From: a virus
Reading direction: 5' to 3' (one strand)
DNA length: 38,049 nt
IMG/VR virus record: IMGVR_UViG_3300025872_000022
Span: 1 to 38,049 of that record
How positions within the stretch are numbered: position 1 is the first letter of the stretch; each line of letters begins with the position of its first letter. Positions 30,641-38,049 of the stretch are shown one piece after another. The notes under the pieces were generated by a model. It saw nothing but the letters and a program-made list of their open reading frames with translations, ran no database searches and was not told the DNA's origin. Made by a program: the position numbers and the translations under genes.

Positions 30641-30843
30641 AAACACTTATTGCAAACATGAAGCACGCGGCACGCAACCATGAAAGCGTTCACATTGGCG
30701 GTGGGCTCTTTTCCCCCGAGGAGTTGCTAGACGCAGCAAAACAATTCGAGGCACTTAAAACAGCGGCGCTTGCAGCACTCGAAGAACCATGCGAAGGCGG
30801 CGCGCTACTGCGCCAAGCACTGCGAAGGATTGATGAAAAATGA
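30637..30843 (+). CDS. 68-aa helical unknown protein
   Basis: A 68-aa protein with two predicted helices (SPEELLDAAKQFEALKTA and ALLRQALRRIDEK). No family recognised. AAAGGAAAAAGAC precedes ATG 30637. Its TGA overlaps a 24-codon ORF (ATGA), continuing a chain of coupled small genes. Confidence 0.55.
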   Translation: MKTLIANMKHAARNHESVHIGGGLFSPEELLDAAKQFEALKTAALAALEEPCEGGALLRQALRRIDEK

Positions 30844-30914
30844 TAGCTGCCGCATGCATTGCCCTGCTCGGGCTAATAATCCTCCCAATAATTTCCGATT
30901 TTCTAGACTTATGA
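30840..30914 (+). CDS. 24-aa hydrophobic micro-protein
   Basis: A 24-codon ORF joined to both neighbours by ATGA overlaps: ATG 30840 over the previous TGA, and TGA 30912-30914 over the next ATG. It begins MIAAACIALLGLII and is almost wholly hydrophobic, one transmembrane helix with an acidic end. GAAGGA lies 11 nt upstream. The double overlap and TM-like composition favour a real peptide, perhaps a membrane regulator of lysis or exclusion; function unknown. Confidence 0.5.
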   Translation: MIAAACIALLGLIILPIISDFLDL

Positions 30915-31198
30915 ATAACGCACAAAACCCCGTTTCAAATAGCTTCGCTGCGCGACTGCTTGAGACAATGCACAGACTGAACCTTAATGAGGCACGCGCT
31001 GCAGACTACTTCGGAGTTCCCGTGTTCACTCTTCGCAAGTGGTGCAAAGGTCAACGTGAACCGAGTGCCGTGGCGTTTCGCTTACTCGACGTGCTAGGTA
31101 TGATCGAGGCACTGGCTCCCGCTCTTCATGAATCGTTTTTACCGCCAGTTGAACAACCAACTCCGCGCAAACGGGGTCGGCAAGTAGTGCAGAATTAA
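30911..31198 (+). CDS. HTH transcriptional regulator-like protein
   Basis: A 95-aa protein. Residues about 15-45 (LNLNEARAADYFGVPVFTLRKW) look like a helix-turn-helix where the recognition helix is VPVFTLRKWCKG, followed by a helical region and a basic Pro/Arg/Lys tail. Such small HTH proteins are common phage operon regulators. ATG 30911 overlaps the micro-protein stop. Target unknown; a role on the ACCCANTGGGT sites is possible but untested. Confidence 0.65.
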   Translation: MNNAQNPVSNSFAARLLETMHRLNLNEARAADYFGVPVFTLRKWCKGQREPSAVAFRLLDVLGMIEALAPALHESFLPPVEQPTPRKRGRQVVQN

Positions 31199-32959: not shown

Positions 32960-33289
32960 ATGTACGAATACAAGGCAAAAATTGAGCACGTTGTCGACGG
33001 TGACTCAGTTGACGCAGTGATTGATGTGGGTTTTAAAACAAACATTCGCCAGCGCCTTAGACTGGCTCGCATTGATACGCCAGAGCGTGGGCAAGATGGG
33101 TATGCGCAAGCGCGTGATTGTGTAACGTGGGCAGTTCTGAATAAAACGGTTTTGGTTAAGACGGAAAAAACTAGCAAGTGGGGTTACTACCTCGCCGAGA
33201 TTACGCTGCCAGACGGGCGGAACCTGAGCGATGCACTATTAGAGGCAGAACTAGCTAAACCGTATGACGGGGGGAAGAAGCACTTTTAA
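32960..33289 (+). CDS. Staphylococcal-nuclease-like (SNase) protein
   Basis: A 109-aa SNase-fold protein: VVDGDSVDA (D13, D15) and RLRLARIDTPE (R34, D39, E42) match the calcium-binding and catalytic part of SNase. The second catalytic Arg, normally in a GR motif, is replaced: the sequence reads KWGYYLAEI (Y76), so activity is uncertain. It could degrade DNA or RNA, or only bind nucleic acid. ATG 32960 is the likely start; a TTG six bases upstream overlaps the previous stop. Last gene of the operon, followed by a terminator. Confidence 0.75.
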   Translation: MYEYKAKIEHVVDGDSVDAVIDVGFKTNIRQRLRLARIDTPERGQDGYAQARDCVTWAVLNKTVLVKTEKTSKWGYYLAEITLPDGRNLSDALLEAELAKPYDGGKKHF

Positions 33290-33335: not shown

Positions 33336-33361
33336 AAAAGCCCGGTAATTCCGGGCTTTTT
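33336..33361. terminator. Bidirectional rho-independent terminator
   Basis: AAAAGCCCGG 33336-33345 pairs with CCGGGCTTTT 33351-33360 around TAATT. T runs follow on the plus strand and, through the A run, on the minus strand. It separates the convergent accessory operon and primase gene. Confidence 0.9.
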
Positions 33362-33363
33362 GT

Positions 33364-35865
33364 TTACTCGTCATCCATTTCGGCAGGATCGTACCCCTTT
33401 ACCAGCTTTCGCTCGTACCCTTTCTCGTACGCATGTCGGTAAATGTAATCAGCATGTCTCTGCTTTGCCTTAATGACTTTCTCGCGGTAGTCTTTGAACA
33501 TGCCAGACAAGCCGGGATTGATCGCCCATGTGACCTTTTTCTTGTGTAGTTCACTCTCAACCTGCACCACCCATCCCGCTTGCTCCAGCACTAACATCGC
33601 GTCCATGACCGCTTGGTCCTTCTGCCAATCGGTCTTGCCTTCTAGCGGACGCCTTGCCGATTTTTTCAAAGTGCGCAAGTCGATTGTTTGAACGTCTGAG
33701 CTAATTTGAATAATGTAATCAATAACCCATTGATCGAAGTCGTTGGTGATTGCGCCACCCACTTCGCCTAGTGAATAACGATACGCCGGGATCACATAGC
33801 CACGAATTAAACTTATGACCCTGTGGACAACATCGGCCTGCACTTGTGGGGCGAATGGGGACTCGATGATGTGGAACAACAGGATCAAACGACCAGCTAG
33901 GCCCTCCAGCTTACCGAATGCCGTCATGTACTCGGTGCCACTATCGAGTACACGCTCGTCTTGTTTTGCTGCTTCATACCATGATTGAAACTCACGAAAC
34001 GTGGTGAACGCTTCAGTAGATAAATGATACGTTTGAGGCGGCAGCGCGTAGGTCAAGCGCAGAGTATTTTCCCATGCTGCCGCACTCGTCATGAACTCGG
34101 GGATTGGGTGACCTAATTTCGTTTTACTTCCGCGCAAAACTGCGGGAATGAATCGTTGCAATAGTCCATCTGCTGCAAGGGCTGCTAAGTTTTGTCTGAA
34201 CACGGTGGGTTGGATATTTCCATAAATCGAAACCGCCAAATTTTCGCAATAGATCGAGCCAGCGCCTACTCGGTCCATTTCGTAATGCTCCGATTCATAA
34301 CTGACAACCCATGCCGAGCGATCCTCGCCGCTAGTCTTGTCGGTCAACTTGCGCACCCACGAGTTCATCTCGTCGAGGTGGCACAACATGCCACGGGGAC
34401 GGTCGGCTGCTTGGCGTACCAGCTTCTGACTCGTGATATCGGACACCGTGATCTTAAGCGGCACGGGCTGCGGGGGCATCTCGGGTACTTGCGGGGCTTG
34501 ATCCGCGCCTAACATTGCCTCGGGGCTGGCTGAGAATTCGAGAAAGGCTTTCTTGGCACTGGCGTATGCCGCTTCTTTACCTTCCCAGTCTAACAATTCT
34601 TTACTGTATCGGGGTCGATCCTCCGCTTCGATGTTTTTTAATGGTGACAACATCGGTCGGGAACCGGGGGACTTCTTGTCCGCTGGATCACCAAGAGTCA
34701 TGAGCCAAAGCACAGGCGGCACACGGAATCCGGGCATAAGTTCAAGCCGGATGCGGGCGTCAACGACTCCGCAAACAGCAGCCAATCCAGCGAACAAAGG
34801 GACCAAAGGGTCACAACCCACGCTTTCTGATATTTCCTGTGACCGCTGGCGTAGGATACCGGGCCAGATCGTCAGGTCCATCTCGGGCGGCTTAGGACGC
34901 AGGCCGTCCACCACGTCCAACGGTTCCATAACTGGCATCTCGATCTTGCTGAACAACTCGGACGCATCGGGCAGGGGCCGTTGCCACCCGTGCTGCTTGG
35001 CAATATGAAATAGCGTTCCGATTTTGACCGCAGACGCTTTATCGGTTTTAAAACTGTTCCACTGACTGAAGATGCCGCCCCGAGCGGGGTACTTAGCGGA
35101 AGGCATTGACCACTCATCCCACAACTGCAATGCTTGATCAAGCTGGTCTGTCTGAGTGCCCGCCCAATGTAAAGCCATTCCGACGTTGATCCACTCGTCA
35201 CGGCTAACGTCGGGGCTGATGTGCTCCAAGGCAGAACGAATTTCGTCCCACGACGCATCCACTGCACCCTCTGTACTGATCGTGCGCTCTTTGTCTTGCG
35301 ACAACATCGCATTCCATAGATCAAGCAGCGCCTGTGGAATGATTGGTAAACGAGTCCAATGCCCGCTGCCTGCCCAATGATAGGGTTGACGTGTTTCGGG
35401 ATGAATTGACGGAGGTAAAACATCCTGCACCGTTAATCCACCCGCAGTGGCACACCGTAGTTCGTAAATCGTGATGCCGCTGTGGATGATCTTTTTTGAC
35501 GGCAATGCTGCACCGAAAGGCATTGCGTACAGTAATTTACCGTGTCCCGGCTTGCCGGAGTTGATAACAACAGCGTCGGGTGCGTTATATAACGATTGCA
35601 AATCAATTCCGTGCTGGTCTAGCAGACTGGCGGCAATAATCCAGTTATCAATATCAAGTGCCATTGTGCCGCTGTAAGCGTGCGCCAATCCGATACCAAA
35701 TCCCGACGATAAATCGGCTTGCGATTGAAGCGCATTTTCTCGAAGGTTCCAACCCGGAGTACGTGGCCCCTTAGTGTTGGGAGGAATCGGGACAAGTGAC
35801 CAACCATGCCGAATGTAAGCGTCGACAGACGCGGGGTGAGATTGCACTGTCTGAAATGCTGTCAT
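33364..35865 (-). CDS. PrimPol-DUF3987 replication initiation protein
   Basis: An 833-aa multidomain protein. The N-terminal primase-polymerase has DIDN (D71, D73), GHGKLLYAMP (107-116), YELR (E135) and PPSIHP (151-156). A PriCT-like helical linker (about 205-290, DEWINVGMALHWAG) follows, then a DUF3987 ATPase/helicase-like region. Its nucleotide-binding loop is degenerate (GDPADKKSP, 392-400), while CHLDEMNSW resembles Walker B. It would prime or initiate genome replication with the family-B polymerase. ATG 35865 has a weak GAGA ribosome site. Its leader is covered on the other strand by a predicted short RNA. Confidence 0.85.
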   Translation of the reverse strand: MTAFQTVQSHPASVDAYIRHGWSLVPIPPNTKGPRTPGWNLRENALQSQADLSSGFGIGLAHAYSGTMALDIDNWIIAASLLDQHGIDLQSLYNAPDAVVINSGKPGHGKLLYAMPFGAALPSKKIIHSGITIYELRCATAGGLTVQDVLPPSIHPETRQPYHWAGSGHWTRLPIIPQALLDLWNAMLSQDKERTISTEGAVDASWDEIRSALEHISPDVSRDEWINVGMALHWAGTQTDQLDQALQLWDEWSMPSAKYPARGGIFSQWNSFKTDKASAVKIGTLFHIAKQHGWQRPLPDASELFSKIEMPVMEPLDVVDGLRPKPPEMDLTIWPGILRQRSQEISESVGCDPLVPLFAGLAAVCGVVDARIRLELMPGFRVPPVLWLMTLGDPADKKSPGSRPMLSPLKNIEAEDRPRYSKELLDWEGKEAAYASAKKAFLEFSASPEAMLGADQAPQVPEMPPQPVPLKITVSDITSQKLVRQAADRPRGMLCHLDEMNSWVRKLTDKTSGEDRSAWVVSYESEHYEMDRVGAGSIYCENLAVSIYGNIQPTVFRQNLAALAADGLLQRFIPAVLRGSKTKLGHPIPEFMTSAAAWENTLRLTYALPPQTYHLSTEAFTTFREFQSWYEAAKQDERVLDSGTEYMTAFGKLEGLAGRLILLFHIIESPFAPQVQADVVHRVISLIRGYVIPAYRYSLGEVGGAITNDFDQWVIDYIIQISSDVQTIDLRTLKKSARRPLEGKTDWQKDQAVMDAMLVLEQAGWVVQVESELHKKKVTWAINPGLSGMFKDYREKVIKAKQRHADYIYRHAYEKGYERKLVKGYDPAEMDDE

Positions 35866-35870
35866 ATACT
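35842..35870 (+). promoter_or_regulatory. Promoter P1 for a short RNA antisense to the primase leader
   Basis: TTGCAC at 35842-35847 and TATACT at 35865-35870, spacer 17. The predicted start is near 35877. The promoter lies across the primase start codon, on the opposite strand. Its -35 resembles those at 35991 and 36313 (TTGCAY). Confidence 0.55.
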
Positions 35871-35876
35871 ATTCTC

Positions 35877-35957
35877 GTTGGTAATCAAGGTTGCCATCTC
35901 CGTCTCCAAAGTCTCTTCACGGGTTGCCCCGGGGTTCACAAGACCCCGGGGTTTTTC
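35877..35957 (+). ncRNA. Candidate antisense RNA of about 80 nt
   Basis: Between P1 and the terminator at 35927-35956 there is no ATG, so the product would be a noncoding RNA of about 80 nt. It is complementary to the leader of the leftward primase mRNA, including bases just before its ribosome site, if that mRNA begins near 35988. Antisense RNAs in this position control replication-protein synthesis in plasmids. Confidence 0.45.
35927..35956 (+). terminator. Rho-independent terminator of the candidate RNA
   Basis: CCCCGGGGT 35927-35935 pairs with ACCCCGGGG 35943-35951 around a 7-nt loop, followed by TTTTT. On the minus strand no T run follows, so it should stop only rightward transcripts. 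No protein gene lies between P1 and this terminator. Confidence 0.85.
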
Positions 35958-35990
35958 TTTTAGAGCTTGAAGAAATCTTACGTCCATGTG

Positions 35991-36027
35991 TTGCATTGTA
36001 CTACGCTTGTGATACACTTACAAGCGT
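35991..36027. promoter_or_regulatory. Face-to-face promoters with an 8-bp operator
   Basis: Rightward: TTGCAT 35991-35996, 16 bp, TACACT 36013-36018. Leftward: TTGTAA (minus strand, 36023-36018), 17 bp, TACAAT (36000-35995), which would drive the primase gene. ACGCTTGT 36003-36010 and ACAAGCGT 36020-36027 form a perfect 8-bp inverted repeat over the -10 and -35 boxes, a likely operator. The two promoters overlap, so they would exclude each other. Confidence 0.6.
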
Positions 36028-36045
36028 CATCACTTGGAGAAAAAC

Positions 36046-36288
36046 GTGAAACTGCAAACATACGTATTAAACGCCGCAGGTCTTCAAGCAATCAATCAAT
36101 TCTCAACTAAGTATTCCGTTTGCAAGATTCCGACTGCGCTGCATTATCAAGCGGAGACGGAGCGCAATACCATCATGATGCAGGGTCATCCCGGTTTAAT
36201 CGCGATCGACAAGATCGTTAGCAAAGACGGTAAAGCGCATGTTTTGTCGCTCAATCCTGAATGGTTTGAAATTAACACGGATGAATGA
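36046..36288 (+). CDS. 80-aa unknown protein (GTG start)
   Basis: An 80-aa protein with no recognised domain (starting MKLQTYVLNAAGLQAINQFS). GTG 36046 is chosen because GGAG lies 7 nt upstream; an upstream in-frame TTG is less likely. It is the first gene of the rightward replication arm, directly behind the divergent promoters. It could be a regulator by position; nothing in the sequence proves it. Confidence 0.55.
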   Translation: MKLQTYVLNAAGLQAINQFSTKYSVCKIPTALHYQAETERNTIMMQGHPGLIAIDKIVSKDGKAHVLSLNPEWFEINTDE

Positions 36289-36312
36289 TGTGAAAATTTT
36301 CATGCTTGTCGG

Positions 36313-36340
36313 TTGCATTGTGCTACAAACGTGATACAAT
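36313..36340 (+). promoter_or_regulatory. Promoter P3, near-copy of the 35991 promoter
   Basis: TTGCAT 36313-36318, 16 bp, TACAAT 36335-36340. The pattern TTGCATTGTNCTAC, then GTGATACA, is shared with 35991-36018. It would drive the ribbon-helix-helix gene and the following nuclease operon, and the shared sequence may be a common operator. Confidence 0.6.
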
Positions 36341-36370: not shown

Positions 36371-36574
36371 ATGACATCCACTAACAAAGCATCGCATCTG
36401 ACTGTCCGAGTGGCAGACCTTACGCGAGCCAAATTTCACGAGAAGGCAAGAAAGTTCGGGACACCGAGCGAAATCTTACGTGAACTCATCGACGCCTTTA
36501 TTGAAGATCGCGTCACCATTAACCCACCTGTAATCAGTAACCCCAAGGAAAAACTATATGTCCCTCGAAGCTAA
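36371..36574 (+). CDS. Ribbon-helix-helix (CopG/Arc-like) regulator
   Basis: A 67-aa protein: a short beta strand (HLTVRVADL, about 9-17), then two helices (RAKFHEKARKFG and TPSEILRELIDAFIEDR), the RHH pattern of Arc/CopG-type repressors that bind palindromes as dimers. The leader is only about 24 nt from the predicted start at 36347 and has no clear Shine-Dalgarno, so translation may be poor. It may autoregulate the similar promoters at 35991 and 36313. Overlaps the next gene by 17 nt. Confidence 0.65.
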   Translation: MTSTNKASHLTVRVADLTRAKFHEKARKFGTPSEILRELIDAFIEDRVTINPPVISNPKEKLYVPRS

Positions 36575-37001
36575 GATCGAAGCATTGACACAAGCCGTTC
36601 AGGCTCTAACTGCACAACTGCAATCTGCTAACGAAACCCCTGTTGCACCTGCACCAGTTGTTGCACATGTACCTGCACCAGTTGTTGCACCTGCACCTGC
36701 ACCAGTTGTTGCACCTGCACCTGCGCCCGTACCTGCGCCAGTTGTTGCACCTGCACCAGTTATGCCATTACCGCCTAGTTTTGTCACTCCTGCTGCGGCA
36801 CCGATAGCATCGGGTGCGCCTTTCACTGACGGAAAAGGTCTAATTGATTACGTCATGAGCGCATATAAAACAATGGGTCCACAAAAAGGCGCGCAGATTC
36901 AAAACGTCTTGACGGGTTTAGGTTACCAAAACATCAACGATGTGAAGCCTGAACACTATGGTGTTTTGTTTGCCGGTGTTGAACAATTGAAAGTAGCGTA
37001 A
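36558..37001 (+). CDS. Coiled coil, Pro/Ala/Val-repeat and C-terminal domain protein
   Basis: A 147-aa protein in three parts: a coiled-coil start (SLEAKIEALTQAVQALTAQL), a repeated Pro-Ala-Val linker (APAPVVAPAP, residues about 28-70), and a folded C-terminal domain of about 60 residues (GKGLIDYVMSAYKTMGPQ). The linker resembles flexible arms in multi-domain phage proteins. AAGGAAAAAC precedes ATG 36558. It is encoded just before the DUF2800 nuclease. Unknown function; a partner in replication or recombination is plausible. Confidence 0.6.
   Translation: MSLEAKIEALTQAVQALTAQLQSANETPVAPAPVVAHVPAPVVAPAPAPVVAPAPAPVPAPVVAPAPVMPLPPSFVTPAAAPIASGAPFTDGKGLIDYVMSAYKTMGPQKGAQIQNVLTGLGYQNINDVKPEHYGVLFAGVEQLKVA
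36642..36762 (+). repeat. Tandem DNA repeat encoding the Pro-Ala-Val linker
   Basis: Degenerate units around GCACCTGCACCAGTTGTT recur several times over this span, coding for PAPVVA. Such tracts can expand or contract by slippage. Confidence 0.75.
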
Positions 37002-38049
37002 TGACTGCACATGCTCAATTGTCGCCCTCTAAACGGCACCGTTGGGCATTGTGCCCCGGTAGCATTCGCGAAGAGGCGAAGTTTCCCGATCAGCGGAGCG
37101 GTCCTGCTGCCGTAGACGGAACCCATAGTCATATGCTGTTAGAACACTGCATCAAAGCGGAACTCGTCGATCCTGTTTCACTGGTAGGTGTTGAGATGGT
37201 CGACCACGATGGTAGTTTTGTGGTTGATGCTGATCGGGCATCTCGGGTTAAGGTTGCCGTTGATTACATTCGTGAACGGTCGATGAACGGCATGTTTAAG
37301 GTGATCTCTGAAGAGCGCGTTGACCCCGAGTATCTGCTCGGGCGCAGCGATCTGTCGGGTACCGTTGACTGTCAAATCATCGGTCCTGATTGGATTGAGT
37401 TGATCGACTACAAAGACGGAATGGGTGTGGTGAGCGCCGAAGGCAACATGCAGCTTGAGCAATATGCGTATGGTGTATTGGCTGGCTACAAACTGCCGAT
37501 TAACGCCGATTACCCGGCTAAACGTATCATCATGACCATCGTTCAACCAAAGCTAGCGCTTAAGGGAATGAAGGCTGTTGCTTCCTGTGAGCGGGATGTG
37601 TACGAAATGCTCATAGGTGCGGGTGCAATCATCATACAAGCTGCTGCAACTGACGCACCAGATGCACCACTTGTGCCGGGTGAAAGTCAATGTAAATTCT
37701 GCAAGGCTAAAGGCTCATGCGCCGCCCTTGCCAGTAACGTAATGAAGGAGGTGGGAATCATGTTTCAACCAACCGTAACGCAACCCCTCGATGTCGCACA
37801 GCAAAGCGCAGATAAAGACCCTACCACGATGGACGACCAACAGATTCGTCAAATCATGGAGGCTGCTCCGCTCATGCGCCAACTGCTTGAGGGTGTAGAG
37901 AAGGAAGCGCTGCGTCGTTTGGAGGCAGGTCAAAGCATTCCCGGTATTAAATTAGTTCATGGTCGCGGTTCTCGTGTTTGGTTACTGTCGGAAGATGAGA
38001 TGGCCGAGAAGCTGGTCAAGATGGGCATCCCGAAGTCTGCTGTCTACGA
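37001..38049 (+). CDS. DUF2800 Cas4/RecB-like nuclease, N-terminal part
   Basis: First 349 codons of a 431-codon protein that continues at base 1. Conserved elements: C18 in ALCPGS, GTHSHMLLEH (40-49), GTVD (D123), LIDYKDG (D136, K138), QLEQYAYG (151-158) and CKFCKAKGSC (C231, C234, C240). C18 with the late cluster makes four Cys of the type that holds an iron-sulphur cluster in Cas4/AddB nucleases, around a PD-(D/E)XK active site. It is probably an exonuclease that makes single strands for the DUF2815 protein. ATG 37001 overlaps the previous stop. Confidence 0.88.
   Translation, partial: MTAHAQLSPSKRHRWALCPGSIREEAKFPDQRSGPAAVDGTHSHMLLEHCIKAELVDPVSLVGVEMVDHDGSFVVDADRASRVKVAVDYIRERSMNGMFKVISEERVDPEYLLGRSDLSGTVDCQIIGPDWIELIDYKDGMGVVSAEGNMQLEQYAYGVLAGYKLPINADYPAKRIIMTIVQPKLALKGMKAVASCERDVYEMLIGAGAIIIQAAATDAPDAPLVPGESQCKFCKAKGSCAALASNVMKEVGIMFQPTVTQPLDVAQQSADKDPTTMDDQQIRQIMEAAPLMRQLLEGVEKEALRRLEAGQSIPGIKLVHGRGSRVWLLSEDEMAEKLVKMGIPKSAVY
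37923..38049. repeat. Terminal overlap of the circular assembly, right copy
   Basis: Identical to 1-127. It lies within the DUF2800 gene and probably reflects assembly of a circular or permuted molecule. Confidence 0.9.

Follow-up and report, generated by a model that had tools for sequence, protein, structure and literature searches.

A textbook means by which plasmids keep their copy number low is antisense control of a replication protein, exerted by way of a coupled leader peptide, and a virulent phage is expected to replicate at maximal speed. In plasmid R1, repA is coupled to tap, which CopA blocks, while in pMV158 the rep gene is controlled by an antisense RNA (RNAII) together with a small repressor, CopG (PMC5717011). 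In the Synechocystis plasmid pSYSA, asRNA1 lies over ssr7036, upstream of the gene for the primase-helicase CyRepA1; translation of ssr7036 is not needed for the copy-number effect, and the authors favour ColE1-like priming (PMC9978351). Among phages, the OOP RNA of lambda has the 3′ end of cII as its pairing target and works by way of RNase III decay (PMC3349717, PMC5415839), and of the reviewed phage antisense RNAs (OOP, PaQ, sar, and sas) none lies on a replication-gene leader (PMC5415839). In the open-access literature, to which our search extended, we find no description of such antisense/leader-peptide control on a phage primase.

We analyze here a virus record of 38,049 bases (IMGVR_UViG_3300025872_000022; the whole stretch is hereafter referred to as the window) in which a short antisense RNA is predicted over the leader of the primase gene. 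From comparison with related sequences, we consider it likely that this RNA blocks translation of a short leader ORF and hence synthesis of the coupled primase, which would place replication under negative feedback.

The window is probably a permuted complete genome, because an exonuclease gene crosses both of its ends (37001-38047 and 3-374). It encodes P22-like portal, head-closure, tail-spike, and DNA-ejection genes, and the element described below is carried by a family of P22-like freshwater phages. The sole good match to the window in the phage collection is DSL-LC05 (82%), a metagenome-assembled genome predicted to be virulent (PMC10611076). Relatives with hosts, as prophage or plasmid, number 0 among 84,980 bacterial and archaeal genomes. 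We find neither a tyrosine integrase nor ParA in 28 near-full-length records, which, together with the prediction for DSL-LC05, points to a probable lytic lifestyle. The window also encodes an HTH repressor-like protein at 30770-31198 (PHROG 2328, E 2.3e-5); HTH_3 is above the Pfam cut-off in 4 of the 28 relatives, although no integrase was found, and a “repressor protein C” is annotated in DSL-LC05. Elsewhere in the window, a two-sided terminator lies at 33336-33360, between a rightward nuclease gene (ending at 33289) and the leftward primase gene, and a strong intrinsic-terminator-like hairpin lies at ~17159 (plus strand), antisense inside the leftward major head protein gene. The features of the primase region are as follows:

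33364-35865, minus strand: PrimPol - PriCT_2 - DUF3987 primase/helicase, 833 aa (Pfam PF09250 8.4e-16, PF08707 4.5e-19, PF13148 3.2e-43)
35842-35870, plus strand: antisense promoter P1, with -35 TTGCAC at 35842-35847, a 17-nt spacer, and -10 TATACT at 35865-35870
35862-35897, minus strand: leader ORF of 11 codons (MATLITNENSI and stop), whose stop TGA overlaps the primase start (ATGA)
35877-35962, plus strand: predicted antisense RNA of ~85 nt, its start placed 7 nt past the -10 and its end in the T tract
35878-35897, plus strand: stem-loop 1, core UGGUAA/UUGCCA (fold prediction and covariation)
35898-35907, minus strand: Shine-Dalgarno of the leader ORF (GGAGACGGAG), wholly within the complement of the antisense RNA
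35898-35925, plus strand: linker with the complement of the leader Shine-Dalgarno (CTCC)
35926-35962, plus strand: stem-loop 2, an intrinsic terminator whose T tract is confined to the antisense strand
35991-36018, plus strand: divergent promoter TTGCAT-16-TACACT, overlapping the primase promoter
35995-36023, minus strand: primase promoter TTGTAA-17-TACAAT, with the start near 35988 and a leader of ~123 nt
36371-36574, plus strand: small protein of 67 aa with a ribbon-helix-helix-like (RHH-like) layout (alignment of 31 and AF2 model)

An initial annotation of this DNA had proposed a rightward promoter (TTGCAC-17-TATACT) with a strong rho-independent terminator within 115 bp, a leftward primase promoter (TTGTAA-17-TACAAT at 36023-35995), and an RNA of about 80 nt fully complementary to the primase leader. 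Both promoters are found as claimed, the terminator is present and one-directional (plus strand), and the predicted RNA at 35877-35962 falls within the 123-nt leader. Two of its descriptions hold in part. The rightward promoter was called consensus-like; its -10 and spacing are present, but the -35 matches the consensus at only 3 of 6 positions (8 of 12 for the whole of P1), so the label is generous, and a simple promoter scanner misses P1 for the same reason. The statement that no ORF lies between promoter and terminator is true for the plus strand, but the minus strand carries the 11-codon leader ORF at 35897-35862.

P1 is embedded in the start of the gene that it opposes: its -35 lies inside primase codons 7-8, and the first base of its -10 is shared with the primase ATG. 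By weight matrix, no other site on the antisense strand of the 2.4-kb primase gene scores higher as a promoter, either in the window or in any of 17 other genomes (18 of 18). P1 and its terminator are the only promoter/strong-terminator pair of such spacing on either strand of the 38-kb window, and 40 first-order Markov sequences contain no such pair. The TTG of the -35 is the complement of the primase Gln8 codon, CAA. This codon is CAA in 77 of the 78 RNA-bearing primases (Gln elsewhere in the gene is ~70% CAG). Its synonymous entropy is below that of every other column among the 447 conserved codon columns, and none of the other conserved Gln columns (23 in all) is as extreme. The Val codon preceding Gln8 varies in its third base, giving TTG(C/A/T/G)AC.

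Four rounds of collecting primase relatives from IMG/VR gave 109 loci; with the window and DSL-LC05 counted, the distinct leader regions number 88. The primases compared extend down to ~63% identity, and nearly all relatives are metagenome contigs. Under a strict definition, a terminator is present on the antisense strand in 80 of the 88 leader regions and on the sense strand in 1, as against 36 of 1617 random segments (2.2%) from the same contigs. All 80 terminator-bearing regions have TAnnnT at the exact place of the -10, and 79 have TTG 17 nt upstream. The eight terminator-less regions comprise seven in which the -10 box is also absent and one (L046) with a decayed stem. Loss of promoter and terminator beside a retained primase had been named as the finding that would speak against the RNA; the outcome is the opposite, with both kept in 80 of 88.

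When the first 20 codons are left out of the primase tree, the RNA falls on both sides of the midpoint root, and its label needs 4-6 changes. The distribution suggests that promoter and terminator are usually lost together. By itself, joint loss is suggestive and not conclusive, because independent contrasts are few (sign test: 3 of 4 agree, none against, 3 informative, p 0.25). The antisense terminator and -10 are lost in L065-L071, L078, L143, L270, L044, and L037, most of which are also without the leader ORF; the -35 TTG is also gone in L065, L069, L078, and L270.

The 85-nt RNA has a predicted minimum free energy of -31.8 kcal/mol (z = -3.95), and 0 of 200 shuffles fold as well. Its homologues (74 distinct RNAs of 59-91 nt, median 82) mostly consist of two stem-loops joined by a CU-rich linker, with a UCUCCUU-type linker sequence in most relatives. 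The terminator stem at 35926-35952 has 11 bp, 8 of them G-C, together with TTTTCTTTT on the plus strand only. A search of Rfam gives no gathering-level match in the window; the best weak match is an unrelated Burkholderia terminator hairpin.

Base pairs in the homologues were counted by register, per hairpin. A MAFFT alignment of all RNAs yielded only 7 pairs, having misplaced the terminator because stem length varies. Stem 1, with which the RNA begins at its 5′ end, occurs in 26 distinct in-register versions, whose 234 cells comprise 135 Watson-Crick pairs, 95 G-U pairs, 0 A-C, and 4 other; at pairs 3-22 (C-G/U-A) and 4-21 (U-A/U-G/C-G), both sides change in a compensatory manner. Other clades have an unrelated yet fully paired stem 1: UGUUAGC/GCUGACA (L059), GUUUGCG/CGCGUAAAC (L073), and GUUAU/AUAAC (L174). 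The 46 distinct versions of stem 2 contribute 448 Watson-Crick cells, 57 G-U cells, and 7 of other kinds. Wherever the antisense RNA pairs G with U, the mRNA has a mismatched A and C, and the count of 95 against 0 in stem 1 therefore indicates that pairing is kept on the antisense strand. Judged by these substitutions, the antisense strand is the strand under constraint.

The same counts bear on an explanation that dispenses with the antisense RNA altogether, under which the hairpins would belong to the sense mRNA or be sites on the DNA, with coding conservation accounting for the sequence that looks like a promoter. Stem 1 does lie over leader codons, and the -35 does lie over primase codons. 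However, such an account is contradicted by the 95:0 ratio of G-U to A-C in the antisense reading, by a T tract on the antisense strand only, by a CAA codon fixed against codon usage, and by a TATAAT that persists in regions in which we find no coupled leader ORF, and we regard it as very unlikely.

The leader ORF lies under the RNA. In 69 of 77 relatives, the leader start with the best Shine-Dalgarno is in frame, despite indels, with the primase-overlapping stop; the ORFs have 8-18 codons. The ATGA overlap alone is weak evidence, because it is partly automatic from the second codon ACA/ACG; the reading frame conserved among the relatives is real evidence for the leader ORF. The median Shine-Dalgarno energy is -8.7 kcal/mol at the leader start versus -3.7 kcal/mol at the primase start. 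A stronger primase Shine-Dalgarno in the clades without the RNA, which we considered as well, finds no clear support in the duplex energies. Because the leader peptides differ completely between clades (MNKVSATAITNGSIL, MKRNKESEISI, MNMTTALSERII, and VITNRGIV), what is conserved seems to be translation rather than any particular peptide; the same has been argued for plasmid leader peptides (PMC5304414).

L056, L059, L060, and L073 show no clear ATGA-coupled leader ORF, and yet they retain the hairpins together with a -10 that matches TATAAT in full; the RNA is therefore kept whether or not the leader encodes such an ORF. Conservation of the hairpin apart from the coding sequence, a comparison suggested in the initial annotation, is thus seen in these four. 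Across the relatives as a whole, comparison shows the promoter, RNA fold, terminator, and leader ORF to be conserved and frequently lost jointly.

Two hairpins with a CU-rich single-stranded linker would also suit a trans-acting sRNA, one that acts on host mRNAs and whose overlap with the primase is secondary. We find this hard to credit, given the full complementarity of the RNA to its own leader and the position of the linker exactly opposite the leader Shine-Dalgarno.

Under the reading that we favor, in which the RNA acts on the leader, a cis-encoded RNA of ~80-85 nt would run rightward from P1, which lies within the primase start, and end at its own terminator. Its complementarity to the primase leader would be complete and would take in both the start codon of the leader ORF and its Shine-Dalgarno. 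The primase, with its weak ribosome site, would be made by translational coupling from the leader ORF (ATGA); pairing of RNA and leader would occlude the ribosome site of the leader ORF and shut coupled primase translation, and the duplex would probably be exposed to RNase III. Because the antisense RNA would be made per genome copy, primase synthesis would go down as copies rise, giving negative feedback. Transcription of the RNA, repression, coupling, and a role in infection (timing or limiting replication) are the parts of this scheme that we infer.

We considered other ways in which an antisense RNA could act on this leader. Transcriptional attenuation of the pT181/pIP501 type would need a sense-strand terminator between the antisense target and the rep start; one is found in only the 1 of 88 leader regions noted above, and we disfavor this mechanism. 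A by-eye search for a ColIb-type pseudoknot, in which the loop of the sense hairpin would pair with the primase start, revealed no complement that recurs consistently. Many sense hairpins, although not all, have a YUNR loop motif (CUUG, UUAG), to which we gave no weight.

The act of transcription, as opposed to its product, may also matter. P1 faces the primase promoter from ~125 bp away, and in lambda the convergent pO promoter lowers pR transcription (PMC3985674). The antisense transcript could then be real while its effect is mainly transcriptional interference with the primase promoter, the terminator serving only to shield the rightward operon. As this would need neither the conserved covarying stem 1 nor the conserved leader frame, we think it improbable as the main effect, although interference and RNA pairing can coexist.

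The divergent region beyond the primase promoter contains a 27-nt direct repeat (35990-36016 and 36312-36338, 81% identical), which contains the rightward promoter; each of its copies precedes one of two small rightward genes. It is possibly the operator of the RHH-like protein. Homologues of this 67-aa protein adjoin the RNA in relatives; its AF2 model (pLDDT 72.7) has helices at 16-26 and 32-44 after an extended N-terminus, and neither Foldseek nor Pfam gives confirmation of an RHH fold. That it is a CopB/CopG-like repressor is speculative. In the window, an 84-aa ORF (36034-36288) with no Pfam or PHROGs relatives separates the primase leader from the RHH-like gene; in most relatives examined, the RHH-like gene comes first.

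A replication origin in the divergent region is another conceivable target, at which the RNA or its transcription would serve as primer or transcriptional activator. RNA-based origins are described in mycobacterial prophages (PMC7157519), and OOP/pO affects lambda replication (PMC3349717, PMC3985674). However, the predicted RNA stops at a strong intrinsic terminator, we find no iteron set or skew switch in the divergent region, and the leader ORF beneath the RNA would be left unexplained; we rate an origin role as quite unlikely. As additions to leader pairing, interference and an origin-linked role like that of lambda pO/OOP are both possible.

A similar arrangement is found in a second clade. 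Among distant PrimPol phages, the antisense terminator is absent in six of seven and present in Pseudomonas phage MR14 (L273, MT104474.1 40358-42803), which, with its IMG/VR relatives L281 and L282, has an antisense element over the PrimPol leader. In this clade, TTGACT-17-GATAAT/GACAAT lies at the primase start, followed by a terminator (CCCGCC..GCGGG) with a changing, covarying loop and a T tract; the PrimPol is ~32% identical to that of the window over the matched part. The mechanism may differ here, because there is no leader ORF and the predicted RNA ends upstream of the primase Shine-Dalgarno.

How, then, does the locus compare with the described systems? The likeness to R1 CopA/CopT, put forward in the initial annotation, extends to a short two-hairpin antisense RNA whose 3′ hairpin is the terminator, a promoter within the leader region of a replication gene, a short leader ORF as target, with apparent coupling of the replication protein to it, and possibly a small repressor gene nearby. 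The comparison is better than first thought, because a tap-like leader ORF lies under the RNA. Unlike in R1, the carrier is a virus and not a plasmid, the target is PrimPol-DUF3987 and not RepA (IncFII), the promoter sits over the primase start itself, and the putative repressor gene is divergent rather than upstream in the same operon; there is also no sequence or Rfam relation. The antisense-RNA reading and the R1 comparison are thus strongly supported in layout, fold, and strand constraint, while membership of the R1/CopA family fails. The RNA would work like CopA and is probably no homologue of it, given the unrelated target protein and the absence of an Rfam match.

In pSYSA, too, an antisense RNA covers a small ORF that directly precedes the gene for a replication protein of the primase-helicase kind, and primase residues 27-297 of the window match CyRepA1-family plasmid proteins (29.6% identity, E 3e-7), with no full-length match. 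It differs in having an ORF of 64 codons, an asRNA of ~150 nt, and an intergenic spacer in place of the ATGA overlap. Lambda OOP (77 nt) is likewise a short, self-terminating phage antisense RNA near replication genes, but it is not on a replication-gene leader and involves no coupled leader peptide, whereas the RNA in the window lies over the 5′ leader of the primase and not over the 3′ end of a cII-like gene. pMV158, in which an antisense RNA is combined with a small repressor, may resemble the locus; however, copG is co-transcribed with repB, while the RHH-like gene here is divergent and its repressor role is putative.

If the leader reading is correct, plasmid-type antisense/leader-peptide control would now be seen in phages. 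A broader proposal, to which we give about an even chance, is that the element is a plasmid-style copy-number controller, ancestral and conserved in the whole group of apparently virulent P22-like phages and arisen independently in the MR14 clade, so that these phages would sense and limit their copy number during infection or persist as copy-controlled episomes. What comes out of the analysis is a small predicted RNA open to direct test, a leader gene that is apparently coupled and so far unannotated, and a clear pattern by which other phages can be scanned. A conserved brake on the primase, if true, would mean either that the timing or limiting of genome copies is under selection in these phages or that they have an undescribed episomal state.
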